Positions 12,985 to 30,791 of a stretch of DNA of 49,610 bases are shown here, piece by piece. The notes beneath the pieces were generated by a model. It ran no database searches. It saw only the letters and a program-made list of their open reading frames with translations, and had not been told where the DNA came from. The DNA is from Haloarcula japonica DSM 6131. GTDB taxonomy: Archaea; Halobacteriota; Halobacteria; Halobacteriales; Haloarculaceae. The translations under genes and the position numbers were made by a program. Within the stretch, counting starts at the first letter, position 1. The number at the start of each line of letters is the position of its first letter. The DNA lies in assembly GCF_000336635.1 (NCBI RefSeq), contig NZ_AOLY01000018.1:1-49610 (forward strand), read 5' to 3'.

Positions 12985-13384
12985 CGACCACGATGTTGTT
13001 CAGGATGAACTGGACGATCTCCGTCCCGAGCGGCGCGACGATCACGCCCCACAGCAGGCCCTGATTCCGGACCGACTTCATCTCCTTCTTCCAGTCCGAC
13101 CGGCGGGTGAACGGGATCGCCACCGTCGCACCGAGGGCGAGGACGCCGCCGATGAGCGGCCCGCCGAACTGGATGATGGTGAAGATGTTCTGGATGGTGT
13201 CGGCCATGTTGGAATCACAGAAGGCGCTGCCAGGATCCGACTGCGCAGCCGCCGTTCCAACGAACAGAATCAGCGGGAGGAGCGCCAGCAGAATCGGACC
13301 GATGGACCTGTGAATGATCCGAATGACGGACGTCGATTCGTCAGTACTGGCCGGCGTCTCGCCGGAGGGGACCTGAGCACACAT
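12962..13384 (-). CDS. VirB2/TrbC-like pilin subunit
   Basis: A 140-residue protein with a hydrophobic signal-like segment ending VGTAAAQS, then a short loop and two further hydrophobic helices (near 75-95 and 110-130) joined by a basic loop (RRSDWKKEMKS). Small size, cleavable signal and two mature helices with a positive loop match VirB2/TrbC conjugative pilins. Being first in the operon also fits. Two cysteines (SAFCDSN and GTSCGF) may link the ends of the mature subunit. The ATG at 13384 has no good Shine-Dalgarno, as expected for the first gene of a haloarchaeal transcript. Confidence 0.65.
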   Translation of the reverse strand: MCAQVPSGETPASTDESTSVIRIIHRSIGPILLALLPLILFVGTAAAQSDPGSAFCDSNMADTIQNIFTIIQFGGPLIGGVLALGATVAIPFTRRSDWKKEMKSVRNQGLLWGVIVAPLGTEIVQFILNNIVVGGTSCGF

Positions 13385-13451
13385 CGTGAGTGAGAAAGGA
13401 GTGATTAACCAAAAGAAGTCAGAAAATTTGGATGAATTTGGAGGTCTTCAA

Positions 13452-14869: not shown

Positions 14870-15928
14870 TCAGATCACTCCCAACCAGAGGGCAGTGATG
14901 AGCAACAACAACAGGAGGAGGGCAGCAATCGCGGCCTTGTAGTAGACCGGTGGAAGGCCCTCGGGAGCGGTCGCCTCCTCGACTGCCTCAGCCAGTTCCT
15001 GTTCGTGTTCGTGCTCCTGCTCGAAGGTCTCGTAGGCAGCCTCGAGCTGTTGCTCCAACGGTTCGATCTCGCTAGCGAGGAAGTCATTCCGCGACTTCGC
15101 GATGTACTCGCCGGCGGCCGTCGGGGTGATCGCGGCCATATCCGCCACCCGATCCGCGATCAGCCGGTCGTCAGTATGGCCGATAGCGGTCACAATCGGC
15201 GTGTTGGCGGTGAAGATCGCTTCTGCGACTCGCTCGGTGTTGAACGCCTGAAGGTTCGAATCGCTCCCGCCACCACGGCCGACGATGATCGCGTCGACGT
15301 CCTCCGAGCGGTCGAGATGGTGAATCCCGTTCGCGATGGACGTCGGTGCCTCTGACCCCTGGACGGTCGCATCCTTCACCAGGATATCGACGGTTGGGTC
15401 CTGCTCGTGTATCGCACTCTGGATGTCGTAGCGAGCATCGCCCCGGAGTGAGGTGACGACACCGACCCGTTCCGGGAACGCCGGCGGGCGCTGTTTCTGC
15501 TCGTCGTCGAACCAGCCACGCTCTTCGAGTTCGCGTCGCAGTCGCTCGACTGCGGCCGCCTGGTCGCCGTCGCCGACGACGATCATCTCCCACGGCTTGA
15601 GGTCGATTTTCCCACCTTCAGTCCAGTAGTCGACATCGCCTTTGAGGATGACCTCGGTCCCGTCCTCGAGATCAGCATCCAGCTCCCGGTAGCGGTTCGC
15701 CCAGATCATACAGGGGAGCTCGGCATCGCCGTCGGTGAGCGTGAAGTAGAGTGCCGTACTGTTCTGGTGGAGGTCGGTGACTTCGCCGATACAGCGGACG
15801 CCGTTGAGGGCAGGCGTGTCCTGGACGACTGACGCAATCCGGTCGTTCAGCTGGGATACGCTAAGGACCTCTTTACCGTCGGGTTCGACCGCCTGCCGCT
15901 CGGTATCCGGTGCGTCCGCCATGCACAT
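14870..15928 (-). CDS. xseA: Exonuclease VII large subunit with C-terminal membrane anchor
   Basis: A 352-residue protein with an N-terminal OB-fold (about 20-115; SVSQLNDRIASVV, YFTLTD) and the catalytic domain (about 150-285) that includes VGVVTSLRGDARYDI, IIVGRGGGSDSNL and TAIGHTDDRLIAD, all typical of XseA. Bacterial XseA (about 400-450 residues) continues into long coiled coils that bind many XseB copies. Here the coiled coil is only about 40 residues (near 285-325) and is followed by a strongly hydrophobic helix (AAIAALLLLLLLITALWL), which predicts membrane attachment. Start alternatives are ATG at 15928 and 15922; the second gives the cleaner N-terminus. Confidence 0.87.
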   Translation of the reverse strand: MCMADAPDTERQAVEPDGKEVLSVSQLNDRIASVVQDTPALNGVRCIGEVTDLHQNSTALYFTLTDGDAELPCMIWANRYRELDADLEDGTEVILKGDVDYWTEGGKIDLKPWEMIVVGDGDQAAAVERLRRELEERGWFDDEQKQRPPAFPERVGVVTSLRGDARYDIQSAIHEQDPTVDILVKDATVQGSEAPTSIANGIHHLDRSEDVDAIIVGRGGGSDSNLQAFNTERVAEAIFTANTPIVTAIGHTDDRLIADRVADMAAITPTAAGEYIAKSRNDFLASEIEPLEQQLEAAYETFEQEHEHEQELAEAVEEATAPEGLPPVYYKAAIAALLLLLLLITALWLGVI

Positions 15929-15977: not shown

Positions 15978-17411
15978 TTAAAATCTCGTGCCGCAGTTGG
16001 AACAAAATTCCTCTGAGGAATGTCTTCGGGCTCCACAGACTTCACATTCCTCTTGGATTGCTGTGCCACACTCAGGGCAATAAGGTTCGTCCGTGACACC
16101 GCGCCCGCAGACGGGACATTGTCCAAATAGTGCCGTCCCACAAGCCTCACAAAACTGTTGGTCACCAGTAACGGACTCTCCACAGACCGGGCATTCATCA
16201 ATCTCGTCATCTGGACCGGTTTCCTCCTCATCCTCCTCGTCGTCCTCTGGTTCTGGTTCGGGTTCTGGTATTGGGATAGTCCCTCCAGAGAACAAATCTT
16301 CGTCTTTTGGGATTTCAGGCGTTTGTGAGCTTTTCACGTATTTTGATAACCACTCATCCAGACGGTGGCCAACGACGTCACGAATCAAGCCTTCCAATTT
16401 CTGATGTGAGAGCGACTCATCGATGCTATTCATGTTCCGAAATACGTCCTCAAACATCTTCTCGCCGTTAGTTTCACGCCGAATCTTCGCATCAAGGGCC
16501 GCTGTAACTCGACGGCCTTTGGTGTAGTGTGCGTTTGAGGAGGTCCACTGACTTGGATCGACTAAAACAGAGCCACTGTGTCGGTCGGTAGTTACGTATC
16601 TGTGGAAGGCAGAAAAAGGGATCCGGCTTTCAAGATACGTGAGCAACGCGGCATAGTAGTTCGTCGTGCCTTCGATGAGCCACTGCGTTGAACTATCTCG
16701 GGTCCACTCTTGGCGTGTATGAACATACTCATGAACCCAGGTGTTATTGGCGTGGTCCACCCTACTCGAGTCAACAGCCCAGAAGCCATTCACGCCACTC
16801 TGAAGCCCTCCCCACCCCCAATTGATGTTTGAGGGGGCTACAACGACAACAACCCCGTCGTTCTTACCCCCCACTTTGAGGTTTTTCGCTGCGTAGCTCA
16901 ACGATTCTCGTACATCACTAAGTGACGGCCTTAGTGACGCGTGCTCTGGAATAGCGATCCGAAAGGTCTGACCACCCGCTTGAAATCGCTCTTGAGTATG
17001 GGGACCAAGGTAGACAATACTCCCATCCGAACTCACAATTCCTTCCTGTCTAATATCATGTTCCTTTTGCAGCTCAATGTTCCTACCAGAGTACCGCCAC
17101 GATGTATTGATAGGTGGATATTTTAAAAGAGCCCACCCACCCGTATCAACAAATTCGTATCCGCCTGCGTTCGTCCGATCCACGTCATAACGGAACCGAA
17201 TCCATGGGTCCTCCGTCGCCCCATCCCATTCACATTGATGTCCCTGAGAATTTGAAAACCCACTGGTAGTTTCTGGGGTGAGATAATCAGGAAACGAGAG
17301 AGTTAGTCCCCCTAAATCCGGGTGAACATCGTATTCGGCATACAGATGAACCGTCCCCTCAGAGTTGTGGTCGAGTTCCGCAGATAGTTTCTGGGTGAAC
17401 GTTCGAGACAT
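15978..17411 (-). CDS. M61-like metallopeptidase fused to three zinc ribbons
   Basis: A 477-residue protein. The N-terminal 170 residues are beta-rich, as in M61 (glycyl aminopeptidase-like) enzymes. The catalytic part has HEYVH (H227, E228, H231) and a downstream IEGTTNYYA whose E247 would be the third zinc ligand, which is the gluzincin pattern. After an acidic Pro/Glu linker (near 380-410) there are three CxxC...CxxC ribbons (CPVCG/CEACG, CPVCG/CPECG, CEVCG/CSNCG). There is no signal peptide, so it acts in the cytosol, unlike most M61 peptidases. It is transcribed divergently from the first tubulin-like gene, with 155 bases between them, which suggests shared control. Substrate unknown; processing of a partner in the tubulin locus is an inference. 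Confidence 0.8.
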   Translation of the reverse strand: MSRTFTQKLSAELDHNSEGTVHLYAEYDVHPDLGGLTLSFPDYLTPETTSGFSNSQGHQCEWDGATEDPWIRFRYDVDRTNAGGYEFVDTGGWALLKYPPINTSWRYSGRNIELQKEHDIRQEGIVSSDGSIVYLGPHTQERFQAGGQTFRIAIPEHASLRPSLSDVRESLSYAAKNLKVGGKNDGVVVVVAPSNINWGWGGLQSGVNGFWAVDSSRVDHANNTWVHEYVHTRQEWTRDSSTQWLIEGTTNYYAALLTYLESRIPFSAFHRYVTTDRHSGSVLVDPSQWTSSNAHYTKGRRVTAALDAKIRRETNGEKMFEDVFRNMNSIDESLSHQKLEGLIRDVVGHRLDEWLSKYVKSSQTPEIPKDEDLFSGGTIPIPEPEPEPEDDEEDEEETGPDDEIDECPVCGESVTGDQQFCEACGTALFGQCPVCGRGVTDEPYCPECGTAIQEECEVCGARRHSSEEFCSNCGTRF

Positions 17412-17454
17412 TGTAGATCAATTAGCGACTCGAATGAGGGTATTTTCTGCTGTA

Positions 17455-17542
17455 TAATAAATCTGCAAACTCATCGGAGTGTGTAGATCGGGTATCGTTC
17501 TGCAGGGTTTCCTTTGGTGAATTGGAAGGCCATTCTTTTTAG
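17455..17542. promoter_or_regulatory. Divergent promoters between peptidase and tubulin-like gene
   Basis: On the minus strand a TATA-like TTTATTATAC lies at 17455-17464, about 45 bases before the peptidase ATG. On the plus strand TTTTTAGG (17535-17542) lies about 27 bases before the tubulin-like ATG at 17567, predicting a leaderless transcript. The two genes share this 155-base gap. Confidence 0.45.
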
Positions 17543-17566
17543 GTATCGCGGAAGAGTTGTCGTTTA

Positions 17567-19882
17567 ATGGCGATACACCCTGTCTTGGTCGTCGGCATCG
17601 GTAGAACGGGGTGTAATATCCTTTCTGCGGTTGACGAGGTTGTTACTGCGGAAGGGGTAGAAGATCGGTTCCAATTCCTCGCAATTGATTCGAGTAATCA
17701 AGATCTTCAAGCATTTGCCCCCGAATCTGCAACCACATACGAGCTAACAATCGATAGAGAGGCCTACAATTGCGCTTCTGAGAGTTTGGCCTATCTACAG
17801 AGAGAACCTGAACTTGTCCCTGAAGCAGGGACCTCCCGTCGACGTCCACTCGGTCGTTATCTAGTTGACTCCAATGCGGACTCTTCGAGCCTGTACGACT
17901 GCCTCTTGGACCAGATTAAAACTCTGTCAGAAATTTCTTCAGATCCTAAACTACGGCAGATATGGGTTATCAACAGCCTCGGGGGTGGAACAGGATCAGG
18001 AGCATTTCCACTCGTTACCTTGTTGCTCCAGAGGTGTAGCTCTGAAATCGAAGAAACTGTCGAGATATTCGGTATCGGCTCCTTGCCGAGATTAGATCGG
18101 TTACAGGAGCAAATCGATGTCCCTGATGGTGAACCCGTTCATTATGCAAATGCCTATACGGCACTTGCAGAGCTCCGGAGACTGATGGATATCGACGGGG
18201 AAACAATGTATCCAATTGAGATCGATATCGACTCTTCGCCGGCCAGCATTAGCTCAACCTCACTCTCGATCAATCAGAACCCATTTGAAGGATATTGGCT
18301 GCTCGGGTTCAACGAAGCAAACCGATTTCATAGCGGTGACAGTTCACAGATTAATAGGTTGGCAGCGCGGTTGATATTCTACCTAGCGTCAGCTGAAGCT
18401 AATGATTGGTTCTGTCAAGGCCATCTGTATTCCGTGGCCGGCGTCTCGGTTGAGATACCGATTGAAGAACTACAGCAGCTCTATTCCCTTAATCGGGAAC
18501 TGGGCGGTCTTGATGACGAGCTTGGTACTCTTCGTAACCGGCGTGAATCCATTATCACAGCCGCCGAATGGATCGAGTCTCTACTACGAATGACGAGCCA
18601 AGTGTCTCCAGCTGATGGAAGTGAAACGGACCACTTCGGTGGAACTGCCGAGTCACTACCGATCGATGAGAATCTAAAATCCGACTGCATGGACCTAATT
18701 TCAGTAATTTCTGGTACCTCCGAGCCGGACAGTTCTCGAACGGATGTATTTGAGAATCGGGTCCAAAATCTCGTGCAGACAAACCGAGAGCGGATCCCGG
18801 ATGATGTTCCTGCAGAACCTGCGATCAGGTTTCTCTGTGCCTCTCTGCTACGGAAGCAAATCAGACAAGAGATTGCAACCCATCCACTCCCCGGCTACTT
18901 GCGCAAAGTAGGAAATAAGTGGTTCTCGGACGAGATTGATGAAACCCCCCAACCTGAGATAGTGAGTCAATGGAACTCTCAGGACGAGAATTTTCAGGAG
19001 TGGTATGAAAATCTACTTATTAGGCTTCAGGAACAGATGGAAAATCTTCAGGAACGAGTCTCTAATTCCCTCATCCCTCGCTTTGTCTCTGATTCAGGCC
19101 AACAATTAAACGAATTCGAAGACGATGTGAGACGTGCTGAGCGATTCGTTGCCGAATTCGAGAATCTACGTGATTTTGAAGCCTATCTCCATACTCAAAT
19201 AGAAGAAGTTCGTCATCAACTCAAAGAACAGCGCCGTAACTTGGAAAAGAAGGCCGAAGACAAGCAAGAGGCCTGGGAAAAAGCACAGCAGCGGTGGGCC
19301 CGTCTTTCGCAACAACGTTCTCAGCTGGAATCCTCGATGGAAGAACTAACCCATCAGGAGGGACGTGTCCGTGTACCACTCCAACTTGAAGAGGACGCCG
19401 CAGACAATGACCTACGAAATTCGAATTTTAGCTCACTACTATCCAAGGGGGTACTCAGCAAGCAAGATTTGAGAGAATCTCTCGAAAAAGGGATAGCGTT
19501 ACTTGAGGAGCCAGTAGAAGATCTGGCGGAATCACAGTTCGGGAAGACGACCGGCCGGCTCGGTATTATCGCAGCGGAAGACGACCATAGCCTTCTCAAA
19601 GGATTGCTATTGAATGGGGAGAAAAAATCGGGGTCTCTCCGGCGTGAACTCTACTACCAATTCAAAGATATCGATAATTTTGTCACCGGGAAACAGTCGA
19701 GTTCCCTCTCTCTTTTAGGATTCTACTCACCTGTTTCACTACAGTACACGAGTGAGTTCGGCACGATTCATCAGTACCACACTGATCCAGAATCTGATGT
19801 CTCCTCCCTTCTTGGGTCAATTTTTGACTCGGACTTACAGGAGCGATTCGCGTATCCAGAATTACTCAATCGACCAGACTAA
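17567..19882 (+). CDS. Tubulin/FtsZ-superfamily GTPase with long coiled coil (paralogue 1)
   Basis: A 771-residue protein. The GTPase core is clear: GIGRTG at residues 10-15 (first nucleotide loop), SLGGGTGSG at 137-145 (the tubulin/FtsZ signature loop) and, about 60 residues later, YANAYTALAELR, equivalent to the Asn-containing helix that reads the guanine. It is not FtsZ or CetZ: those are 350-400 residues, while this one has a long second half with strong coiled-coil character (about 500-600, Glu/Gln/Arg-rich) and a C-terminal segment with VSLQYTSEFGT. It shares GRYxxDS (near 96-102) and YWLLG with the second tubulin-like protein of this locus. Such Tubulin_2-type proteins are thought to form GTP-dependent filaments. 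Codon use is less GC-rich than in the conjugation operon. Confidence 0.85.
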   Translation: MAIHPVLVVGIGRTGCNILSAVDEVVTAEGVEDRFQFLAIDSSNQDLQAFAPESATTYELTIDREAYNCASESLAYLQREPELVPEAGTSRRRPLGRYLVDSNADSSSLYDCLLDQIKTLSEISSDPKLRQIWVINSLGGGTGSGAFPLVTLLLQRCSSEIEETVEIFGIGSLPRLDRLQEQIDVPDGEPVHYANAYTALAELRRLMDIDGETMYPIEIDIDSSPASISSTSLSINQNPFEGYWLLGFNEANRFHSGDSSQINRLAARLIFYLASAEANDWFCQGHLYSVAGVSVEIPIEELQQLYSLNRELGGLDDELGTLRNRRESIITAAEWIESLLRMTSQVSPADGSETDHFGGTAESLPIDENLKSDCMDLISVISGTSEPDSSRTDVFENRVQNLVQTNRERIPDDVPAEPAIRFLCASLLRKQIRQEIATHPLPGYLRKVGNKWFSDEIDETPQPEIVSQWNSQDENFQEWYENLLIRLQEQMENLQERVSNSLIPRFVSDSGQQLNEFEDDVRRAERFVAEFENLRDFEAYLHTQIEEVRHQLKEQRRNLEKKAEDKQEAWEKAQQRWARLSQQRSQLESSMEELTHQEGRVRVPLQLEEDAADNDLRNSNFSSLLSKGVLSKQDLRESLEKGIALLEEPVEDLAESQFGKTTGRLGIIAAEDDHSLLKGLLLNGEKKSGSLRRELYYQFKDIDNFVTGKQSSSLSLLGFYSPVSLQYTSEFGTIHQYHTDPESDVSSLLGSIFDSDLQERFAYPELLNRPD

Positions 19883-20136
19883 TTGGCTCTGCGAACTCTT
19901 ATTTCTCAGACAATCTATTCTTAGATAAGAAATAAACCGCGTGATAGCGGGGGCTTATCGAGGACGTACAAATGATTCACTGGTAACGGCCGATCTTACA
20001 AAATGCACTTGCTATTGCTTCACAACCGATGTGTGAGGCTTAGCTAAATACGAATGGACTACTGAATTCTCCGAATAGGCCACGTCACACTTGGGTTTCA
20101 TATCCCATCCTTGTAATGTAGCTCGTAGAGGTACTT

Positions 20137-21297
20137 ATGTCGACAGAGTCCTCCGAAGGTGACAACGGGAGAACGCTACTATCGAAGCTGAGAGCGACCG
20201 GAACGCCGCCGAGATCACCGGCGGGGACGTTAATAGTCGAACGGTTCGCACAGATGGTCGGAATCACCGATATCACATCTCGTTATGATGCGTACCTGTA
20301 CCTTGTCGTAGGTACGCTCCTCGGTGGCGTGGTGTCTTGGCTGTTCTCTCCGCAGTTCTCGATGACAGGGGCCGGTACACTCCATCCGTGGTCGGTGACC
20401 TATCACGGTTCTCTCCTGTTCGGGCTGTTCCTCACAATGCAACTTCGAGACTGGTACCAACAGGGAATTGATGATCTTCAGGTCGTGCCTAGTGTAAGGG
20501 ATCGGTTTTTGCCGCTGACACCACCCTCGATTCGATGGGGGATTTATGTTGCCGGCCTAAGTCTCCACTTTGGGTACTTTGTGGGAGTCGGAGAGATCTC
20601 AGGCGTCTATGCGTTCGAAGGAATGCTGAGCGGTTCCATCAAGTATTTATTTGTCATCCCGTTTATATATCTTCCAGTCATCGCCGATCTTCTCACCACA
20701 TTTGTCGGTATACATATGATGTTACCCTATCGGATCCACGACGAAGCGATCGATCTAGACTTCGCAGATACCATTAATTTCCACGGTCTCCGGCCAGTCG
20801 GGCAACTGATCAAACGAGGGACTCAGACCTACTTCGTAGCGTTATTGTTGTTCACTTTGTTTTTCTTGCGAAAGGTCTTCCCGATCGCAGAAGTTACTGG
20901 TGGGCGATTTGCTCTATCCGGTGGAGCGTACACCCAGCCATCGGATATGGTGTTCATTTATCTCTTCTTTGCTTGGGTCATAGGGATCCTATTCTTCGTT
21001 GTCCCCGTTGTGTGGATCCACCGGTACATGCGTCACCAAAAGCAACAGGCCCTCGAAGAACTACATGCCGATATTGAGGTTTCTGCCGTCCGACTAAAGG
21101 ACGTCACAACCAGACCCGAAGACCAACAGGAGTTCTTCGACTCGGTGTACCTATATACGGCACTCGACCGAGTTGAGAACGGACATGAATACCCAATCGA
21201 CTATCGGTTGCTCAGAGGAGTTCTGCTAATCGGGCTATTACCCTTGGTGATCAATTTAATCACGTACATTTTGACGACGTTCGTTCTCCCAGGTTGA
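20137..21297 (+). CDS. Polytopic membrane protein of the tubulin-like locus
   Basis: A 386-residue protein with a cytosolic N-terminus of about 50 residues, roughly seven or eight membrane helices (for example YLVVGTLLGGVVSWLF, IFLYLFFA-like segments near 285-305, and LLIGLLPLVINLITYIL at the C-terminus) and a cytosolic loop near 320-355 rich in charged residues. I recognise no transporter or enzyme signature. It is on the same strand as the first tubulin-like gene, 254 bases downstream. It could be a membrane receptor or anchor for the filaments (inference). Confidence 0.7.
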   Translation: MSTESSEGDNGRTLLSKLRATGTPPRSPAGTLIVERFAQMVGITDITSRYDAYLYLVVGTLLGGVVSWLFSPQFSMTGAGTLHPWSVTYHGSLLFGLFLTMQLRDWYQQGIDDLQVVPSVRDRFLPLTPPSIRWGIYVAGLSLHFGYFVGVGEISGVYAFEGMLSGSIKYLFVIPFIYLPVIADLLTTFVGIHMMLPYRIHDEAIDLDFADTINFHGLRPVGQLIKRGTQTYFVALLLFTLFFLRKVFPIAEVTGGRFALSGGAYTQPSDMVFIYLFFAWVIGILFFVVPVVWIHRYMRHQKQQALEELHADIEVSAVRLKDVTTRPEDQQEFFDSVYLYTALDRVENGHEYPIDYRLLRGVLLIGLLPLVINLITYILTTFVLPG

Positions 21298-21676
21298 TCC
21301 AAAGACGGACTGGATTTGTATTGTGTCGTCCGACGCGTGATCAAGCTAGTCGGCGTCGGTATCATAGTCTGTAGCCATTCACGGGTCGAGTCGACCTGCG
21401 GTGGTTTCAACGTCCTACCGAGTTGCATTTAGGCCTGAAAGAGATAATCCTATTTTCAAGCTCGGTCAACCAGTCATCGGCCCGGAGTAGTGTTGACTTC
21501 AGGAGGGCCAGCTTCCGGTCACACTACCCTACGGTCTCATAACTCTACGAGGATTTCAACAGATCCGACCAGTCTCATAAAACGTAGCACAGGCAGTTTC
21601 CTCACGTGCCAAACACAGGTCTCGAAGTAGGAAGTGAAAGAAATTTATTTAAAACTCATGTCCGAGGGGTTCCAAT
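21298..21676 (+). promoter_or_regulatory. Intergenic region with TATA box for the exported protein
   Basis: This 379-base stretch has no convincing gene. Near its end a strong TATA-like element, TTTATTTAAA (21644-21653), lies about 27 bases before a predicted start site just upstream of the ATG at 21677. The rest is featureless by eye, apart from a 10-codon minus-strand ORF (about 21345-21375) that is too short to call. Confidence 0.45.
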
Positions 21677-22360
21677 ATGCGCAGAAATCCGTTTTCCGGG
21701 CGGCGGACCACCATCTTGGCTATTCTGATCACTATAATCGTCCTCACAGCCGACGCCGGCATCGCTAGTGCTGCTGTGAGTGGTTCGTTCTCGAGTTCTT
21801 ATGACGGATGGAACGATGGATCGAGCTCCGACGCCCGTGGTCACGAAATTCAGGTCACTGGAACGATCGAAGTCACTGGTGATAGCGCAGTTAATCCCCG
21901 AATCGTGATTCAAGGTGCCGACAACACAGTCCTCGATCAGAGCTCTGTTCAGGTGTTCGTCGAGGGGGACCGGTCCATCAACTTCGATAGATCAACGCGA
22001 GAATCTGCAGTGGTCTATCGAGCTGACGAGGTCCCTGCAGGTACGACTCTCCGAGTCGAGTACAGAACCTACTATATCGGCGGGGCCGACTCAGGGGACG
22101 TTACAGTCGGGGAAGTCAATTTCAATTACGAAACCCCAGGCGGGAGTTCCCAACAAGAGTCATTTTCGACCCAGAACGCACTTGAAAACCGCCCCGAGAA
22201 TGTGATCGATAGCTTGGAACAGCAGACAGACCAAGGCGAAACCCTTTCGACTGCCCAAGAGATCCTCTCTTACGTCGGAATCCTCGCAGTCATCTTCGTG
22301 ATTCTGAAGCTAGGACTTTCGCTCGTTCGCGACGGAGAAGACGACGATATAGACATCTAA
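21677..22360 (+). CDS. Exported protein with C-terminal membrane anchor
   Basis: A 227-residue protein. It has a basic start (MRRNPFSGRR), a hydrophobic signal helix to about residue 32 ending IASAAVSG, a beta-rich extracellular domain (about 35-155), a flexible Ser/Gln-rich linker, and a membrane helix near 195-215 (YVGILAVIFVILKLGLSL) followed by an acidic cytosolic tail. The tail could contact a cytosolic filament. A strong promoter precedes it and the next two genes follow closely, suggesting a three-gene operon. Family not recognised. Confidence 0.7.
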   Translation: MRRNPFSGRRTTILAILITIIVLTADAGIASAAVSGSFSSSYDGWNDGSSSDARGHEIQVTGTIEVTGDSAVNPRIVIQGADNTVLDQSSVQVFVEGDRSINFDRSTRESAVVYRADEVPAGTTLRVEYRTYYIGGADSGDVTVGEVNFNYETPGGSSQQESFSTQNALENRPENVIDSLEQQTDQGETLSTAQEILSYVGILAVIFVILKLGLSLVRDGEDDDIDI

Positions 22361-22401
22361 CCGTCGGTTTACACCCGAACTTCACTGAAGAGGGGACCAA
22401 G

Positions 22402-22827
22402 ATGACCAAAGCAAAATGCCAGAAGGAAAGGACGCATCCGATGTTTACGGTCGAGACGGACCTGCAGGACACGGAGCGGGTCTGCTGCATCGGGCCCGAG
22501 ACAACGGGAACGAAGGAGGTCACCGTTACCAACTATAAGGGCTATCCGATCTACATTGACCTCCATCTGCAGAGCCTGAATGGGTGCCTCGAGTTCCTCG
22601 ATTCGGGCAAAACGGAGTACCATGTGGCACGGAAAGTCCTCCCACCTGCGGAGAGGGGAAATCCGACCCGGAAGACCTTCGCTCTCCAAGTGTCACAGTA
22701 TGCGGAGGCACTCGATGCCGAGGACAGTATCCGCGTAAATCTAACGTACTACGACCGCGAGGACGCGCTGGAGGAGTCGAAGAACGACTCCATCCCCGAG
22801 GTGTTTCCCGAGGTCGAACTGGTCTGA
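22402..22827 (+). CDS. Predicted beta-sandwich protein, unknown function
   Basis: A 141-residue, mainly beta-strand soluble protein with no signal peptide; segments such as GTKEVTVTNYKGYPIYIDLHL look like an immunoglobulin-like or MSP-like sandwich. Two adjacent cysteines (RVCCIG near residue 29) stand out for a haloarchaeal protein. An internal ATG at codon 14 (MFTVET) is an alternative start. Its stop overlaps the start of the next gene (TGATG), showing translational coupling with a membrane protein. Function unknown. Confidence 0.6.
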   Translation: MTKAKCQKERTHPMFTVETDLQDTERVCCIGPETTGTKEVTVTNYKGYPIYIDLHLQSLNGCLEFLDSGKTEYHVARKVLPPAERGNPTRKTFALQVSQYAEALDAEDSIRVNLTYYDREDALEESKNDSIPEVFPEVELV

Positions 22828-23309
22828 TGATCGGCGAGTTGGCCTCGCTCGTCGTCCAGACTGCTCCCTTCGTCAGCATCGTCATCCTCGAACTATTGCG
22901 ACCCGGATTCAACCGACGACTCGATTTAGTCCTCGAAGAATACGACGAGGTTACGCTGTTCGATGAGCGCCAAAAGACCGACATCGAACGGTTCGCCGCA
23001 TATAGTTTCGACTACGAGAATGCGATGGAGCATCTCGAACTCACGCTTCTGGCACTCATTGTCGTCTTTGTGGGGAAACTCATCGCCGCGAACGCTCGGA
23101 GGACACTCGTTCTTACTGGCATCCTGTTCGTCGTTTCTGCGCTGGTGATAGTGGCCGTCCGGTACCGGACCCGGTCGTACTTCGAGGCACTCTCACCGGA
23201 TCGATACTGGGTCGAGGGACAGATCGCCGGACATCGGTACGGGAAACTGGTTGTGGTCGGGAGCAACCTGCTGGTAATCGTGTTGATCGTCGTCAGCGAG
23301 GTGTTCTGA
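22827..23309 (+). CDS. Membrane protein coupled to the beta-sandwich gene
   Basis: A 160-residue protein with four hydrophobic segments: one at the extreme N-terminus (LASLVVQTAPFVSIVILELL), a pair near 75-110, and one at the C-terminus (LVVVGSNLLVIVLIVVSEVF). An acidic amphipathic part lies near 30-65. The ATG at 22827 overlaps the stop of the previous gene. The frame stays open further upstream, but that part is antisense-like in composition and would overlap the upstream coding region. Possibly a membrane partner of the tubulin-like proteins; family not recognised. Confidence 0.65.
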   Translation: MIGELASLVVQTAPFVSIVILELLRPGFNRRLDLVLEEYDEVTLFDERQKTDIERFAAYSFDYENAMEHLELTLLALIVVFVGKLIAANARRTLVLTGILFVVSALVIVAVRYRTRSYFEALSPDRYWVEGQIAGHRYGKLVVVGSNLLVIVLIVVSEVF

Positions 23310-23371
23310 GGGGTATCAGAAAGCAAGTGCGTCAGGCATGCCTAGGCATCCTGTTCTGGGTAAGATCTTGG

Positions 23372-24580
23372 TCAACGTGTTTTACCGAGCTGATATTCCT
23401 CAAGGACGAATCGTGTGCGCCCCATCAGTTTCTCTAGAAGATCGGTGGACAGCTCGTTTCGAAGCGTCTCCGCAAGAAGGTCGGAGACTGCCGACTCCGC
23501 CGTCTCTGATTCCGTTGTAACTGAGACTTCGAAGACTTCCTCTTGCCCGGGGTCGTCTCCCCACCGAATCTCGAAGTCAGGTCCCTCTATCACTAGGAAC
23601 CGACAGGCGTCAGGGAACCAGTCGGCGGGTTCGAGTTTCTTGACAGTTCCTGTCTCGCGTTCGACCTTGTCGTCGGAGGTCTCCCAGTTCGCCTCCATTG
23701 GGGCCGTGTCCGTGATGTCGAACATGCTGGTAATAGTCTCAACCAACTTAGTCGGTCTCATGTCTGTGGTCCACGTCGTGGACACTCTCGCGCCGTAGTC
23801 ACGGATCCTGACAGTTCGTTCGTCCGCTGCGTAGATATCGATCTCGAGCCGGTCATCGGTGGTGCGGTTGACATCTGTCGTAATTGAACCATCTGTGTCT
23901 TCGATGTTCGACAGGATATCGGGCTCGTCAATCGTGGGGGAGTCGTCGAGTACGATTTCTCCGATTCCAGGGTTGATCTCGCCGATATCCTGATCAATGT
24001 CGACAGATTCAGCGTCAATATGGCCAGCGGCGACACTATCCATGAGTGCCGCTTCGTCCGTCGCGGAGAGGGTCGATTCGGACGGGAGCACGTCGATGTC
24101 GATGCTCCGTTGTACCTCTTGCATCGTCTCCACGTCGAGGTGGTGCTGTGCCATCTGCTCCTGTAACGTTTCTCGGAGGGCACCAACGTCGGTCTCCGCG
24201 TCGGCAACGATGTTCGCGATATTAGACTCGTTCTTATCATGTCGTTCCAAGAGCTCCCGGATTCCCTCGATAGTGATCAGAGTGGCGAGAATGACGCCCT
24301 GTTTCCGGTACCTCTTTTCGATGATCTCGTACCTTCGCTTGGTGAGTTTAGCTTTCTGTGCGAATTCCTCGCGCTCGATGTCGTTAGCACCGGCCCCCTG
24401 ATCAAGGAGTCGTTTGTATTTGTTCTCGTACTTCTCCAGTTCTTTCTCGAGGCGGGTTCGTTCCTGGCTGATCCGAATCTTGTCTTCTCTGAGTTCTCTG
24501 TCGCTGTAGAATTCTGGGTCGAAAAGTGACTCGTGATCATCAGTACCGAACGTCGATTCAATCAAGTCGGTGACACCCAT
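23372..24580 (-). CDS. Coiled-coil protein of the tubulin-like locus
   Basis: A 402-residue soluble protein. Residues about 30-160 are long charged helices (RTRLEKELEKYENKYKRLL, then KAKLTKRRYEIIEKRYRK), broken by one apolar segment (GVILATLITIEGIRELL), then more helices. This helical-hairpin layout recalls ESCRT-III/Vipp1-type polymers, but I see no family motif. An acidic disordered region (about 165-235) separates it from a C-terminal alpha/beta domain (about 235-400). It lies on the minus strand between the two plus-strand tubulin-like genes, converging on the membrane-protein operon. A structural or adaptor role is inferred. Confidence 0.65.
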   Translation of the reverse strand: MGVTDLIESTFGTDDHESLFDPEFYSDRELREDKIRISQERTRLEKELEKYENKYKRLLDQGAGANDIEREEFAQKAKLTKRRYEIIEKRYRKQGVILATLITIEGIRELLERHDKNESNIANIVADAETDVGALRETLQEQMAQHHLDVETMQEVQRSIDIDVLPSESTLSATDEAALMDSVAAGHIDAESVDIDQDIGEINPGIGEIVLDDSPTIDEPDILSNIEDTDGSITTDVNRTTDDRLEIDIYAADERTVRIRDYGARVSTTWTTDMRPTKLVETITSMFDITDTAPMEANWETSDDKVERETGTVKKLEPADWFPDACRFLVIEGPDFEIRWGDDPGQEEVFEVSVTTESETAESAVSDLLAETLRNELSTDLLEKLMGRTRFVLEEYQLGKTR

Positions 24581-24878
24581 GTCAATCCCGTGCCCTGTTG
24601 TTAGACTTTCTCAACGAGCGACAAAGACGTTTCCCCCTCTTCATATCGCGAGTTTGGAGGAGAGTAGTCGATGCTCACCGCGCCATCCGCCGACTGATCA
24701 TGAACCGAGGAGTGGAAGGCGGATTATACCTGTGGCAGCCCCGTCGATGGTGAAAAGGTGACCGAGGATACTGGCCCGTCTGACCAACGCAACAACGAGA
24801 GACAATTTGGAGATATATTGATATAGGATTTGGATGGCCACCAACACTTAAGTCGAATTCGGGCTACGGTGTTCTTAT
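24581..24878 (+). promoter_or_regulatory. Promoter region of the second tubulin-like gene
   Basis: A divergent gap of 298 bases. CTTAAG at 24847-24852 is about 27-30 bases before the ATG at 24879, predicting a leaderless transcript. The rest holds an AT-rich run (near 24810-24830) and no gene that I can support. Confidence 0.4.
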
Positions 24879-27725
24879 ATGTCGGATCCGCTACCGACGT
24901 TTGCTATTGGCGTCGGACAGGCCGGTATCGCCATGATGAACACGCTCGCAGAGACGGTTGAGCGAAACGAGAGTGAGGAGTTTTTCGATTACTTTGCCAT
25001 CGATACTGACGGGGATACGCTCAGTAGCGTCCCACCAGGTACGACTCGAGTGCGTCTCAACGTTTCTGATGCCCACCTTGACGAAGATATGGCTACCTAT
25101 CCATATCTGACGGAGGATACGGAAGTGGGTGGAAAGGGGGCAGAGCGTCAACGTCCCGTCGGCCGGTACAAGCTCGATAGCCGGGGGCACGAGACGTTCG
25201 ACGATTACTTCGAGTCATTGTGGTACGATATCCTCGAACACTACCAGGAAGTCGACTACACCTTCCGGGAGGATCGGGACTCCTACAACATCTTCCTGCT
25301 CCACTCGCTCGGTGGCGGCACAGGGAGCGGAACCTTCTCGCTGCTCTCGGCGATGCTGAATCGGATCGCCCAGCGCATCGAAGATCAGAACGACAACGTC
25401 GACGTGTATGTAGGCGGTGTCGGTGTCGCTCCACAGGTCGACTTCGACCCCGAAGTCACGGATCCGCCGGGCGAAAAGATGTACTATCCCAATTCCTACT
25501 CTTCGCTGAGTGACCTGAGTAACCTGCTTGATGCTGACGACGAAGCACTCGATATCCCAATTTACTCAAAGAGTTTCGGTCAGGGTGGAACCCTCTCAGA
25601 CATCGACGAACGCGTCGAAGAGTCGTTCACGGGCGACGCGATTCCCATCGAGCGAATCCCGTACAACGATTACTGGCTGATCGGTGTCGATGAGAACCTC
25701 ATCACCAGTGGTACCGGGACTGACTTTATCGAGGGCTATCGGGAGCAGATCAACCGGCGAGTGGCAGAGAGCATATATGCACTCTCTGAGATGGAACAGT
25801 CCGTCGAAAATTGGTCCAGCCGGGCCAAAGGGACGGCACCACTCGGAACAGTAGGCCATGCCCAGCTTCAAGTCCCTCACGAGCAGGTGCGTGAGTTCTG
25901 CAAGATGAAGGACGAGCGTGAGGAGAAGAAAACGCTCGTCACGGAGACGATCCCGAGCCAGCTGGAGGACCTCCGTTCAGAGAAGAACGACCTGGAGGAG
26001 ATCAAGCAGGACCCGACAACGGTCAACGAACATCTCGACGACGTCTCCGACTGGCAGCAGAACTTCCGTGGGCGCTTCGAATCGCAGCTCGGAGCCGGCA
26101 ACGCCCTTGTCAGAAACAGCACGGCGGAGGACGTCGAACGCGTTCTCGATGCTATCGAGGCGGAAGCAAGCCCGGATGAACCGGAAGAAGAGGGTGAAGA
26201 AGCGTCGGACGAACCGGAGGACATCGACGACATTCGTGCTGACCAGCGGCCAGAGTTGCTTCTACTCGCAACGGAGATTCTGGAGGAGATGCTTCAGACG
26301 CCGAATGCTGCGCCCGCTGTCGAAGACCACTGGGAAGAAATCGTGTCGAGTCAGTGGCGGACCTACGACATGGCGGATCGGACCAAGTTCGGGGGCAGTG
26401 CTACGTCGACTCTCGAAGGGAAGGTGGAGGCACTCAAGACCTTCTACGACGAGAAAATCGATGAATTCCAGGAGGAACTCGAGAATGTGGATCTCGGGAC
26501 GATCGGACAGGTTCAGGAGTTCTTCCCGCCATGGCATCCCCTGACCGAAAGCGATCGTGAAGCAGCTGAACAGAAGCTCGATAAACTGCGCGAGAGTCGG
26601 GATGATCTTCTTGAAGCAGATGGCCGGTATCAGCGGGTTCAGGGGATGAAAGAAGCCGTGCAGAGCCGTCGCAATCGAGCGAAGAACCTCCTCGACGACA
26701 AAGTCAGTTCGGTGAACTCGCTGATTACTGCACGTGAGTCGGAGAAAGAGGAGGCGAAGAATCGGATCGAAGCACTCGACCGATCTATTGAACAGGAGAA
26801 GGACGAACTCGCCAGCGAGGGGACCGGCAAACGTCTGGGTATCTTCCCGCTCCGTCGGGACATGCTCGATGACGAGGAGCTAACTCTTCAGCGGGTCGAT
26901 GACGAGCTCAACAGTCTGGACGATTACGTGACCCAGGGCTTCATCGACGAACGGAAGGTCCGAAACGGCATCAACCAATGGCTCAGTAACGCCACGAGCT
27001 GGGAAGAGCCGGTCTTCGACATGAACTACTCGGAAACCGACCGGGGGGAAGAAAAGAACCCACGACAGGAGATGTGGCTTCTGTACCACGAGGACAACGA
27101 GCAGTATGCTGTCGAAGGCGTCGACACTATGATCGGGGGTACTACCCGGCGGTCGGGAAGCGACAATATGATCGACTATATCAACGATCCCTACTCTATC
27201 TCGTTTGTTTCCTTCCATAACCGAGGGCCAGTAGAGGCGCTCACCCTCTATCAGCGGCTTCGTGATATGGCGGATCGAGGGCAACTCGATCCAATGGCGG
27301 GGAAGTATCGGGACTACCGACAAGCATTCGCGTACCCTGAGTGGTACGACCGAAATATTCGCCTAGCATTCCAGATCAAGTCGCGAATCGAGATCCCACG
27401 GCCGCCAGAACTAGATATAGGCCGAGTGAAGAAGTCTGAGATGAGCGAGGGCGAAAAGAAGAACTTCATCAAGCAGACCGGGTTGGATACCTATATGTGG
27501 CGAGGGACGATGTGGGAAGACTACGAATTTGGTGACGAGGATGAAGTCTTCGATGGGTGGGATCGAACTCTGGAGGGAATCACATTTACCAGTCTTCAGC
27601 AGGCTACCCCCGATCCCGACCTGAAAAGTCGGTGGTTGGCCGGACAAGCCGACTGGGAAGACATCCTCCAAGCGTACCAAGAGAATTTAGAGGATAGGGA
27701 GCAGCTCCAGATCTCATTCGAATAA
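24879..27725 (+). CDS. Tubulin/FtsZ-superfamily GTPase with very long coiled coil (paralogue 2)
   Basis: A 948-residue protein. The GTPase core has GVGQAG at 11-16, SLGGGTGSG at 143-151 and YYPNSYSSLSDL about 60 residues later. It shares RQRPVGRYKLDS (90-101) and NDYWLIGVDEN with the 771-residue paralogue. After the core come acidic and coiled-coil stretches (about 340-460 and 540-660) and a C-terminal domain (about 660-940) rich in Trp and Tyr, including RGPVEALTLYQRL. The size is far beyond FtsZ, CetZ or TubZ. Having two paralogues beside dedicated membrane proteins suggests that they copolymerise or bridge membrane and filament, but this is an inference. Confidence 0.87.
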   Translation: MSDPLPTFAIGVGQAGIAMMNTLAETVERNESEEFFDYFAIDTDGDTLSSVPPGTTRVRLNVSDAHLDEDMATYPYLTEDTEVGGKGAERQRPVGRYKLDSRGHETFDDYFESLWYDILEHYQEVDYTFREDRDSYNIFLLHSLGGGTGSGTFSLLSAMLNRIAQRIEDQNDNVDVYVGGVGVAPQVDFDPEVTDPPGEKMYYPNSYSSLSDLSNLLDADDEALDIPIYSKSFGQGGTLSDIDERVEESFTGDAIPIERIPYNDYWLIGVDENLITSGTGTDFIEGYREQINRRVAESIYALSEMEQSVENWSSRAKGTAPLGTVGHAQLQVPHEQVREFCKMKDEREEKKTLVTETIPSQLEDLRSEKNDLEEIKQDPTTVNEHLDDVSDWQQNFRGRFESQLGAGNALVRNSTAEDVERVLDAIEAEASPDEPEEEGEEASDEPEDIDDIRADQRPELLLLATEILEEMLQTPNAAPAVEDHWEEIVSSQWRTYDMADRTKFGGSATSTLEGKVEALKTFYDEKIDEFQEELENVDLGTIGQVQEFFPPWHPLTESDREAAEQKLDKLRESRDDLLEADGRYQRVQGMKEAVQSRRNRAKNLLDDKVSSVNSLITARESEKEEAKNRIEALDRSIEQEKDELASEGTGKRLGIFPLRRDMLDDEELTLQRVDDELNSLDDYVTQGFIDERKVRNGINQWLSNATSWEEPVFDMNYSETDRGEEKNPRQEMWLLYHEDNEQYAVEGVDTMIGGTTRRSGSDNMIDYINDPYSISFVSFHNRGPVEALTLYQRLRDMADRGQLDPMAGKYRDYRQAFAYPEWYDRNIRLAFQIKSRIEIPRPPELDIGRVKKSEMSEGEKKNFIKQTGLDTYMWRGTMWEDYEFGDEDEVFDGWDRTLEGITFTSLQQATPDPDLKSRWLAGQADWEDILQAYQENLEDREQLQISFE

Positions 27726-27780: not shown

Positions 27781-27938
27781 GCAATTCTCAGGAATCCCTT
27801 GTGACCCCCTACTATGGCCGCTTACGGTCGTCGAACGCCGAATCCCGTTCTCGTTCTCTCATTACCCACCCCTATCCAAGGTAATCAGCGAAAGTGACCA
27901 TAGAACTTTTTCAGTGGGCTTCTAATCTGCAAACGGCC

Positions 27939-28994
27939 ATGGAAAAGTATCATAATTTGGTACAGAGAATTCTTAGAGGCGGACATTACAAGAAAAATCG
28001 CACAAAAGTCGATACAATAGCGGATTTCGGCCACCACTACGAAATTAATCTAGCAAAGGGATATCCCCTATTAACTACTAAGAAGATGGACACTTTCCGG
28101 TGGGATTCAATGCTCCATGAGCTCGTCTGGTATTTATCTGGAGACCATCATGTCCGCAAGTTGCGTGAAAAAACAGCGATTTGGAATTCGTGGGCAGATG
28201 AAGATGGAAACCTTCCAAGCGCCTATGGGAGATTCTGGCGTCGTTTCCCAATACCGGAGAACAAAGCGCAATTACCAGGGGAAGCATGGGCAAGCGAAGA
28301 GTCTCCCTGGGTTCAGCGTGATGATGAGACGGGTACACTGGTCTTCGACCAGTTGGGTTACGTAGTGGATACACTCAAAGGAAAAAACCCCGATCGAGAC
28401 CGTCATTCCCGGCGGCTGGTCGTATCAGCGTGGCACCCAGCAAACACGGGACCCTCAGCACTCCCCCCCTGTCATTATACCTTTGTCATCAATGTCCAGG
28501 CAGGGAAGCTGAATTGTCATCTCACCCAGCGATCCGCAGATATTGCTTTAGGTGTCCCATTCAATATTGCGGCCTACGCGTTACTGGCACGAGTTCTAAG
28601 TGAGGTGACTGATATAGCTCTGGGAAAGTTTTCGCATACACTTGTGGACGCCCACATTTATTGTGGACAAGAGGAACGGGGCGAGTGGTACTCTGAGAAC
28701 CTAAGCGAGTTTCAAGATCACCTCGCTAACGTGAATAGCAAAGAAGAGTATCGAAGTGTCCGGAACTGGGTTTTAGAAAACGCTCCCCCTGAGCAGACAA
28801 CAGAGGTTGACGCAGGTAGTCACAATTACGGCTATGACCATGTTCCCGGCCTCCTTGAACAACTGGCTCGGGATCCACTTGATCGGCCCAGAGTGGAACT
28901 TGATATTGAGTCCCTCGGAGAGTTCTCTTATGAAAATGTGACCCTTCAGGATTACGATAGCCATAGTGATTTGAGATTTGAAGTTGCAGAATGA
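27939..28994 (+). CDS. thyA: Thymidylate synthase
   Basis: A 351-residue ThyA, which methylates dUMP to dTMP using methylene-tetrahydrofolate. The catalytic cysteine is in PPCHYTFV (C178), preceded by DRHSRRLVVSAWHP and followed by QRSADIALGVPFNIAA, all diagnostic; the YGRFWRRF motif lies near 96-103. I chose ATG at 27939 (MEKYHNLVQRIL), which matches the usual ThyA N-terminus; an in-frame GTG at 27894 would add 15 residues. It is longer than E. coli ThyA (264), with insertions around 105-150. It overlaps the dihydrofolate reductase gene (ATGA), which regenerates its folate. It is clearly less GC-rich than the conjugation operon, which fits acquisition by transfer. Confidence 0.93.
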   Translation: MEKYHNLVQRILRGGHYKKNRTKVDTIADFGHHYEINLAKGYPLLTTKKMDTFRWDSMLHELVWYLSGDHHVRKLREKTAIWNSWADEDGNLPSAYGRFWRRFPIPENKAQLPGEAWASEESPWVQRDDETGTLVFDQLGYVVDTLKGKNPDRDRHSRRLVVSAWHPANTGPSALPPCHYTFVINVQAGKLNCHLTQRSADIALGVPFNIAAYALLARVLSEVTDIALGKFSHTLVDAHIYCGQEERGEWYSENLSEFQDHLANVNSKEEYRSVRNWVLENAPPEQTTEVDAGSHNYGYDHVPGLLEQLARDPLDRPRVELDIESLGEFSYENVTLQDYDSHSDLRFEVAE

Positions 28995-29506
28995 ACCGTG
29001 AGAGAACTATGGACCTCGTAATTATCGCTGCAGTAGCTGATAACGGTGTTATCGGTCACAACGGTGAACTTCCATGGCACTATCCTCAAGATCTGAAACA
29101 TTTTAGAGCCGAAACCATCGGGAGCCCGGTTATTATGGGGAGAAAGACGTTTGAAAGCATAGAGAAGCGTCTGGGTCAACCACTTCCGGAACGGAAGAAT
29201 ATTGTCCTAACCCGCAACGGAGTATCTTCGGACCAAGAGAGAGTGATAGAGGTAGGGAGTATTGATGAGGCCCTTGAAGAGGCAAAAAACGAGAGTAAGG
29301 AACAGGCCTATGTCATAGGTGGTCGATCGACTTATGAGGAATTTTTAAATCGAGGAATAGTAGATTACTTACTTATTACGCATATTCCTAGAAAATATAA
29401 TGGCGATACGCAGTGGCCCGGTCCCGATTTCTCGGAACTTGATTGTATAGATTGTCGGAATATTAGTGAAGCGCTGGTTGTTTCAAAATACAGGATCAAC
29501 CCGTAG
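28991..29506 (+). CDS. folA: Dihydrofolate reductase
   Basis: A 171-residue DHFR, which reduces dihydrofolate made by ThyA. Motifs: IIAAVADNGVIGHNGELPWH near the start, with PWHYPQDLKHF (the acidic substrate-binding Asp), VIMGRKTFESI (NADPH site), and YVIGGRSTYEEFL. The ATG at 28991 overlaps the thyA stop. A second ATG at 29009 (MDLVII) gives the conventional N-terminus, so the first six residues are uncertain. Haloarchaea often pair thyA with a DHFR (hdr) gene. Confidence 0.93.
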   Translation: MNRERTMDLVIIAAVADNGVIGHNGELPWHYPQDLKHFRAETIGSPVIMGRKTFESIEKRLGQPLPERKNIVLTRNGVSSDQERVIEVGSIDEALEEAKNESKEQAYVIGGRSTYEEFLNRGIVDYLLITHIPRKYNGDTQWPGPDFSELDCIDCRNISEALVVSKYRINP

Positions 29507-29622
29507 TGGAAATTAAGAAAAGAACCATACAGTTAGCCAAAGTCGCCTTACCCTCTCAGTTGTATTTGCTTATCTTCGTCCGCTGTCTGAAGAATCGGGG
29601 CATAGTCATAGAATATTAGCAA

Positions 29623-30081
29623 CTATTCCTCTCTTACAGAAGCCCACTCCTCTCGAAGTAGGTCTTCTAAAGTCTCCTGCTCCTCAGTACTTAGATTGAT
29701 ACCATAATTCCCAAGAATCTGCTCCAACTCGTTCCGAGCCGTTTTAATCCGGAGTTCTTTATTGTGTGATAGAGCATCGCACATCAGTCTCCGCTGTCTC
29801 TCTATCTCGTCCACCAATTGGTTCACAAAAAGATCAAATGGACTTAGCCTGGCCAATATTACAGCATAATGGTTCTTTTTTGGTATTATTCCCTCCGATT
29901 CCAATTTCCGGTAAAATCTATCCCCTCTCACATACTTGATGCTTAGAAGAAAGAGTCCGAGCGTAAAGGGGATTGCCAATATCACTTTCGTATTAATCAC
30001 TAAACCTATAGTATTTAATAACAGAAGAATGCCGTTAATTTCAACTAAAGTGTCGCGATCTATATCTGAAGAGAGGGACAT
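29623..30081 (-). CDS. Two-helix membrane protein with cytosolic helical domain
   Basis: A 152-residue protein with two membrane helices near 15-50 (GILLLLNTIGLVI and VILAIPFTLGLFLLSI) and a cytosolic C-terminal part made of amphipathic helices (VDEIERQRRLMCDALSH, LSTEEQETLEDLLREEW). Family not recognised. It starts 23 bases after the DCD-like gene on the same strand and is probably in one operon with it. Confidence 0.6.
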   Translation of the reverse strand: MSLSSDIDRDTLVEINGILLLLNTIGLVINTKVILAIPFTLGLFLLSIKYVRGDRFYRKLESEGIIPKKNHYAVILARLSPFDLFVNQLVDEIERQRRLMCDALSHNKELRIKTARNELEQILGNYGINLSTEEQETLEDLLREEWASVREE

Positions 30082-30104
30082 TAGTTAAACGCTCTTCTCC
30101 TTAA

Positions 30105-30791
30105 TTATTCTATCTTATTAAGTAACTCTGCGTACTTCTCTTCAAGCTCCTCAATTCGCTCAAGAAGAATTTCTCGGTCCCGTCTAGCTGCTGACTGAAC
30201 GTCCTTTTCTCTGAATCGTGGTTCAGACAGATTACGCCCATCTTCAAGTGTTTGTTCATCCAGAGTCGTGGTCACCGAAACATATTCGAAAATCACATAG
30301 GCAATAATATCCCCCTCTTGGATCTCAATGCCTGCATCTTTTTTTCCAGTATTATTACCGGTTTTTTTGCCATCTCTTGGTTCAGTTACTCTACTTTCTT
30401 TTTTATTGTTAGATATTGCAATACGCAACGGTTCCCCTCCTTGCCAGTTTGTATCAATTGGCCCAGTCCCAACATCTTGTGCACCTCGTACAAAACTGTT
30501 CGGGGGATAAATACGGCCAAAAATGCGGATTGGATACTCTTTACCGATTTCACGAGTTGTTACGTCTTCTTTAGTAAGGAATAATTTGGTTTCTCCCGGG
30601 CGGATAGTCGCTGTAGATTCCTTTGTTCGTTCATAAGTAGAGTTCCCCTCAATAGTTTTCGTTCTCTTTTCAGTTATCCCGCCGTATCTCAAGGGCACCT
30701 TAATATCCTCGAACGGAGCGTCTTCATGAGCATTCTTCACCAATCCTTTCTCAATATAAAACTCCAGTTCTTTACCGGACAGGACGTTCAT
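30105..30791 (-). CDS. DCD/dUTPase-fold protein lacking the catalytic glutamate
   Basis: A 228-residue protein whose start (MNVLSGKELEFYIEKGL) parallels the Dcd start ([16 protein letters not shown]), and whose middle (SFVRGAQDVGTGPIDTNWQ, then GGEPLRIAIS) aligns with the Dcd active-site block ([16 protein letters not shown]). By eye the Dcd catalytic Glu position is Ala or Ile here and the DPGF turn is DTNW, so it is probably not a deaminase. The last 40 residues form a coiled coil (LLERIEELEEKYAELL). I chose ATG at 30791: the TATA-like box predicts initiation near 30803, downstream of the earlier ATG at 30815. It may be a regulatory or structural partner of Dcd, or a nucleotide sensor. Confidence 0.65.
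   Translation of the reverse strand: MNVLSGKELEFYIEKGLVKNAHEDAPFEDIKVPLRYGGITEKRTKTIEGNSTYERTKESTATIRPGETKLFLTKEDVTTREIGKEYPIRIFGRIYPPNSFVRGAQDVGTGPIDTNWQGGEPLRIAISNNKKESRVTEPRDGKKTGNNTGKKDAGIEIQEGDIIAYVIFEYVSVTTTLDEQTLEDGRNLSEPRFREKDVQSAARRDREILLERIEELEEKYAELLNKIE

Follow-up and report, generated by a model that had tools for sequence, protein, structure and literature searches.

Why should a haloarchaeal genome with five ordinary FtsZ/CetZ matches also carry two large tubulin-like genes in a single cluster, and which of the genes around them belong to the same system? The cluster occupies positions 15978-27725 of a 49,610-nt stretch of Haloarcula japonica DSM 6131 (NZ_AOLY01000018.1), here called the window. 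It encodes the tubulin-like proteins TubA (771 aa) and TubB (948 aa), a 386-aa polytopic membrane protein (mem386), a 227-aa exported protein (exp227), a predicted peptidase and three further proteins (Table 1). A first-pass annotation had proposed that all of these form a two-tubulin membrane-remodelling system, and the open reading frames proved to have the places and sizes that it gave. When related haloarchaeal genomes are compared, the system contracts to a conserved core of four genes, encoding a zinc-ribbon metallopeptidase, TubA, an exported single-pass protein and TubB. The best reading of this core, which we judge to have a slightly better than even chance of being right, is that the tubulins form a scaffold tethered to the membrane, with the exported protein serving as anchor or receptor.

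According to this proposal, the gene set would be a horizontally mobile, two-tubulin version of the haloarchaeal FtsZ-like 1 (FtsZl1, Tubulin_2) branch. TubA and TubB would each use the FtsZ-like N-terminal domain to bind guanine nucleotide, and their coiled coils would mediate co-assembly in the cytoplasm. The single transmembrane segment and cytosolic tail of exp227 would tether the assembly to the inner face of the cytoplasmic membrane, while its adhesin-like β-sandwich would face the envelope. With the tail bound inside and the sandwich outside, the system would couple a cytoplasmic tubulin scaffold to something beyond the membrane and might serve in remodelling the membrane or envelope. 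The metallopeptidase, expressed from the divergent region next to TubA, would act on a component of the assembly, either processing or disassembling it.

The core is found intact in two genera besides Haloarcula, in genomes from other families. G090 has all four genes in the same order as the window, and G245 has the peptidase (-), TubA (+), exported (+) and TubB (+) genes; a third tubulin lies upstream there, and the window's extra genes are all missing (G-numbers denote related genomes, L-numbers loci fetched from them). Two partial versions also occur: G173 encodes the peptidase, the exported protein and two TubB-clade tubulins, and G252, on a 5.5-kb contig, has the peptidase and the exported protein with a single TubB-clade tubulin. 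Closer to home, the Haloarcula genome G000 is nearly identical to the window in this region, G212 carries the region too, and a single-protein scan of genome contigs found TubA to be 100% identical in Haloarcula sebkhae JCM 19018. Thus, of the neighbours first regarded as partners, the peptidase and the exported membrane protein are kept beside both tubulin paralogues in other haloarchaea, but the other four are not. Identity of TubA is 58% in G090 and 43% in G245, and that of TubB 87% and 64%, respectively. At G173 the parts have diverged unevenly (peptidase 72%, exported protein about 40%, TubB 36%), showing that modules have been exchanged, which is as compatible with the tethered scaffold as with the conflict system considered below. 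In G090 a gene pair read from sequence as IS200/IS605-type TnpA/TnpB lies between TubA and the exported gene (L018:9514-12095), and the exported gene carries an in-frame stop; this copy may be decaying.

The two tubulins and their nucleotide domain

The motifs SLGGGTGSG, GRYxxDS and YWL(L/I)G are shared by TubA and TubB, as the first reading had it, and both are real genes of the tubulin superfamily. Each exceeds the curated cut-off of 27 for Tubulin_2 (PF13809), TubA with 82 bits and TubB with 69.4 bits, and each matches Tubulin (PF00091) more weakly. By sequence they are members of the known family Tubulin_2/FtsZl1, which was described in 2010, first in the haloarchaeon Halorhabdus utahensis, with membrane remodelling as its proposed role (Makarova & Koonin 2010, PMC2875224). 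As laid out in that paper, FtsZl1 proteins consist of an FtsZ-like (GTPase-like) N-terminus, a coiled coil and a helical C-terminus. TubA and TubB resemble this description in the GGGTGSG of their FtsZ-like N-terminal domain and probably in a long coiled coil and a helical C-terminal region, and also in their membrane-associated neighbours, their coexistence with ordinary FtsZ and the missing canonical T7 elements. They had at first been taken for a type unlike FtsZ, CetZ or TubZ; a new type is not what they are, since their layout appears to be the published one, already tied to membrane remodelling, and the existence of this family explains the apparent strangeness of coiled-coil tubulins. 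In library scans, TubA residues ~465-655 gave low-complexity matches to coiled-coil proteins such as SMC and Rad50.

Phylogenetic analysis places TubA and TubB in separate clades, each supported at 100/100 and each containing three genera, and the two tubulins co-occur in three genera; the tree has some long branches and its deeper nodes are uncertain. TubB is grouped with the tubulins of G173 and G252, and a C-terminal extension of ~100 aa is common to TubB-clade members. For the heteropolymers that the first-pass annotation suggested by analogy with α/β-tubulin, the separate clades and the co-occurrence give indirect support, but some related loci have one tubulin only. The genome's own second, long FtsZl1, of canonical type (about 1042-1070 aa; G000 contig C42, 156876-160920 region, L017:4873-9518), falls in a separate 100/100 group. 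Beside it lie a second gene and one for a transmembrane protein whose DO-GTPase match is below threshold, an arrangement also seen in G050 (L055). With a clade and neighbours of its own, this protein indicates that the genome has two different FtsZl1-type systems in addition to the five FtsZ/CetZ matches.

Do these proteins have a GTP-binding fold? A profile of 24 relatives matched CetZ2 (4b45, E 2.8e-9) and FtsZ chains among solved structures, and aligned with a profile of four of the genome's own FtsZ/CetZ proteins (hhalign 97%, E 5e-11). AlphaFold, given TubB 1-381 with TubA as the sole companion sequence, returned a poor model (mean predicted local distance difference test score (pLDDT) 41), whose top PDB matches were CetZ2, CetZ1, tubulin and TubZ, at E 7.6e-5 and weaker. 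The fold that the first-pass annotation had foreseen is thus borne out by profile matches and by a low-confidence model nearest CetZ2, but only weakly, and we regard an FtsZ-like fold of the N-terminal domain as likely. Homology to haloarchaeal CetZ/FtsZ is detectable in this nucleotide domain; unlike those proteins, TubA and TubB are two to three times longer, and neither FtsZ_C nor a CetZ C-terminal domain was recognised in them.

The glycines of T1 and T4 are nearly invariant among the relatives aligned, and GGGTG(S/T)G is kept in nearly all of them. The T7 motif NxDxxD, by contrast, has no consistent occurrence in the expected region of 27 proteins, which makes the usual GTPase and filament chemistry of FtsZ doubtful for them; this is in line with the remark in the 2010 paper that T6-H7 is not recognisable in FtsZl1 (PMC2875224). 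Might TubA and TubB, then, be non-polymerising nucleotide-binding scaffolds, with coiled coils that serve as long spacers for the peptidase or membrane protein? The unconserved T7 would suit such proteins, and the text of Makarova & Koonin leaves it as an option for FtsZl1 that it does not form filaments. The same text states, however, that all characterised tubulin-superfamily proteins form filaments, and the near-universal retention of the T1 and T4 glycines also speaks against this explanation, which we consider very improbable.

The exported protein and its pairing with tubulins

What could bring a cytoplasmic tubulin to the membrane? The topology scan of exp227 finds a signal peptide and one transmembrane segment followed by the tail RDGEDDDIDI, in agreement with the exported protein with an acidic cytosolic tail of the first-pass annotation. 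The model of its ectodomain is a nine-strand β-sandwich (mean pLDDT 74, mostly 78-91 in the sandwich region); its structural matches, to sandwiches of pilins and adhesins, are weak (TM-score about 0.4). At single-tubulin loci of other haloarchaea an adjoining gene encodes a protein with a signal peptide, a β-rich domain, one transmembrane segment and usually an acidic tail, and the exp227 group is homologous to this wider family (hhalign 98.6%, E 1.3e-15, 178 columns). Basic residues directly follow the transmembrane segment in most members, which is consistent with a cytosolic C-terminus.

The family has 20 strong members among 391 Halobacteria genomes (E 1e-88 to 3e-33, followed by a gap to 8e-6), and all 20 adjoin a Tubulin_2 gene, one of these tubulins (in G202) being broken. 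Independent cases number fewer than 20, since two members are almost identical copies from Haloarcula and a few more are close kin, and the query profile, built from tubulin-adjacent members, could favour such members; the search itself covered whole genomes. In several loci open reading frames overlap. Distances between tubulins correlate with those between the adjacent exported proteins (r 0.80, a value reached in 0 of 10,000 permutations), and also when the TubB clade is left out (r 0.65, 5 of 10,000 permutations). Shared descent of the whole locus accounts for this correlation as well as direct contact does. We read the exported family as the probable membrane receptor or anchor of a short-tubulin clade.

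A reviewer of the 2010 paper objected that a cytoplasmic FtsZ-like protein cannot complex with exported proteins encoded beside it (PMC2875224). A single-pass partner that is confined to the neighbourhood of tubulin genes, and varies along with them, is a concrete candidate for a link through the membrane that can be put to the test, and it suggests how a cytoplasmic tubulin touches the membrane; a vague prediction of membrane remodelling is thereby narrowed to one binding question, in a class that includes the genetically tractable hosts Haloferax volcanii and Haloarcula. The proposed role, membrane attachment of a tubulin-type protein, is like that of SepF/FtsA/ZipA-type anchors; unlike these, the exported protein spans the membrane and has an extracellular β-sandwich. 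No SepF/FtsA/ZipA-type protein was among its Pfam or PDB search matches, although no homology test was aimed at these anchors. A stronger version of the proposal, in which the exported family is the dedicated transmembrane receptor of one clade of FtsZl1 tubulins and TubA and TubB form an obligate heteropolymer switched by a cytosolic protease, seems to us unlikely; if true, a tubulin scaffold would be physically coupled to the cell surface in these archaea.

Several observations weigh against a membrane-tethered scaffold, the inconsistent T7 motif among them. In TubB-type systems the cytosolic tail has 10-17 residues, leaving little surface for binding, and in G173 it is not acidic. The core is rare among genomes. 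Three chromosomal short tubulins have no exported partner within the fetched stretch of ~20 kb, so not all tubulins are paired in this way. These three Tubulin_2 genes (L043, L045 and L047) lie between or beside a pfkB-type kinase gene and a DUF6663 gene, with mutL in two of the loci, and their stable chromosomal position may mean that their role is a different one. An acidic motif conserved in the tail was considered and rejected, given the G173 tail and the general acidity of haloarchaeal proteins.

The peptidase and the nearest known systems

The peptidase consists of an N-terminal β-rich region, an HEYVH...WLIE site, an acidic linker and C-terminal double zinc ribbons. H227, E228, H231 and E247, that is, HExxH and a downstream WxxE, are invariant in nine relatives, which makes a gluzincin-type (clan MA) metallopeptidase a fair reading; there is also a weak match to the HExxH region of flagellinolysin. 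The first-pass annotation had called it a cytosolic M61-like peptidase. It is predicted to be cytosolic, with no transmembrane segment or signal, and does have HExxH, but M61 is unsupported at the family level, with no match to it in Pfam, NCBIfam or PDB profile searches. Copies of at least 49% identity occur in six genomes (the window genome, G212, G090, G173, G245 and G252), all beside TubB-clade tubulins, and the next best matches drop to 37-38%. Longer homologues are widespread (a match in 315 of the 391 Halobacteria genomes), and one of them has an N-terminal hydrophobic segment, a calcium-repeat-like tail and a C-terminal hydrophobic segment. In the light of these surface-type features, the tubulin-linked enzyme seems to have branched off, as a cytosolic form, from a family of surface peptidases. 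The 155-bp region that separates its gene from that of TubA is likely to be a shared promoter region, judging by the divergent gene layout and the base composition.

Two known systems come closest, the FtsZl1 operons with vWA and the Firmicutes conflict systems that combine two tubulins with a DO-GTPase. Unlike the published FtsZl1 operons, the core described here has two tubulins, a zinc-ribbon peptidase and an exported bitopic partner, a type of partner unmentioned in the main text and legends of PMC2875224. Pfam and NCBIfam scans found no vWA, divergent GTPase or protein kinase among the core genes; such neighbours are frequent, not defining, in the FtsZl1 paper. The tubulin family is known; the partner set and the two-tubulin arrangement were not found described for archaea in the open-access papers searched, in which we also found no experimental work on FtsZl1 tubulins.

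The second comparison raises the main alternative, that the core serves in conflict or stress response as a haloarchaeal equivalent of the DO-GTPase systems; here the exported sandwich would sense an attacker or surface damage, the tubulins would form a triggered assembly and the peptidase would be the effector. The GAP1-N2 DO-GTPase systems of Firmicutes likewise have two tubulin-domain proteins with C-terminal coiled coils, together with vWA and membrane or extracellular components, and related conflict systems include HSP70 and GrpE (Kaur et al. 2020, PMC7159879). By Pfam, vWA occurs at four haloarchaeal single-tubulin loci, HSP70 at two and GrpE at one of those two. Two loci, L042 and L020 (G239 and G030), encode a tubulin, an exported protein, vWA and a fusion of HSP70 with zinc-finger-like domains; L042 also has a GrpE homologue. 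The window core has no vWA, HSP70 or GrpE; unlike the GAP1-N2 systems it is archaeal and has an added peptidase, its one known effector domain, and neither DO-GTPase nor GAP1 was found among the cluster proteins. PADLOC gave no significant match, just weak coiled-coil ones. A patchy distribution on plasmids or in insertion-sequence-riddled regions, the low GC content of the tubulin cluster relative to its left flank and the uneven divergence at G173 would all suit a conflict system, but patchiness is equally expected for any accessory trait. We regard this alternative as possible, though rather improbable.

Local insertions and flanking genes

Four genes of the cluster, those for mem386, the 141-aa and 160-aa proteins and the 402-aa coiled-coil protein, had been counted as partners of the tubulins. 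None of them has a counterpart at any related tubulin locus, and they were rejected as parts of the system; their relatives are few and scattered, and they are insertions in this lineage. Out of 126 genomes, distant relatives of mem386 occur in 15 others, relatives of the 160-aa protein in only three others, and relatives of the N-terminal ~240 aa of the 402-aa protein in four others, none at a tubulin locus. The 141-aa protein has no family match in Pfam. The translational coupling of its gene to the next is confirmed by a TGATG overlap of stop and start, which makes 22827 the most likely start of the membrane protein.

Table 1. Features of the tubulin cluster and its flanks, in window coordinates
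Feature	Position	Strand	Evidence	Status
Conjugation-type operon: 1454-aa T4SS-DNA transfer-like, VirB4/TraG-like ATPase, TrbL/VirB6-like	195-13393	-		
Exonuclease VII large-subunit homologue	14870-15928	-	TIGR00237, 1.4e-85	
Cytosolic zinc-ribbon metallopeptidase (predicted), 477 aa	15978-17411	-	DZR PF12773 7.2e-13; no transmembrane segment or signal	Conserved core
Divergent intergenic region, peptidase/TubA	17412-17566	.	Open reading frame coordinates, composition (42% GC)	
TubA, 771 aa, Tubulin_2/FtsZl1, predicted coiled-coil C-terminal half	17567-19882	+	PF13809 6.3e-23	Conserved core
mem386, polytopic, about 5 transmembrane segments, 386 aa	20137-21297	+	Transmembrane scan	Local insertion
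exp227, signal peptide, 9-strand β-sandwich, one transmembrane segment, short acidic tail	21677-22360	+	Topology scan, model	Conserved core
141-aa soluble protein (β-sandwich by first-pass estimate)	22402-22827	+		Local insertion
160-aa membrane protein, about 4 transmembrane segments, coupled to 141-aa gene	22827-23309	+	TGATG overlap, transmembrane scan	Local insertion
402-aa coiled-coil protein	23372-24580	-		Local insertion
TubB, 948 aa, Tubulin_2/FtsZl1, predicted coiled coil, extra ~100-aa C-terminal extension	24879-27725	+	PF13809 4.5e-19	Conserved core
Thymidylate synthase-, dihydrofolate reductase- and dCTP deaminase-like genes and HD-domain protein	27894-32907		Names read from sequence, HD domain excepted	Just downstream of TubB, low GC

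The left flank raises a further question: do the tubulins and their neighbours travel as cargo on an integrative conjugative element, with a part in its transfer or maintenance like that of TubZ in plasmids? The conjugation-type operon is about 2.6 kb from the peptidase gene, and three other tubulin loci have similar genes no more than about 10 kb away. VirB4-like genes are, however, common, with several per genome, and they are far from the conserved tubulin cores of G090, G173 and G245 or on other contigs; nor was a centromere-like or TubR-like partner identified. A conjugation link of the tubulins is therefore not supported, and we think the cargo explanation quite improbable. Close copies of the operon occur at G000:C42, G000:C33 and G333:C4, with no specific tubulin link.

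A virus origin was rejected, IMG/VR scans and phage records having given no relatives. The exonuclease VII-like gene was also rejected as a part of the system, having no relative at other tubulin loci; its product ends in a hydrophobic, transmembrane-like segment, which is unusual for an exonuclease VII large subunit. Of the thymidylate synthase-, dihydrofolate reductase- and dCTP deaminase-like genes downstream of TubB, likewise set aside, only the dCTP deaminase-like gene recurs, in G173 at about 5 kb from the tubulins.

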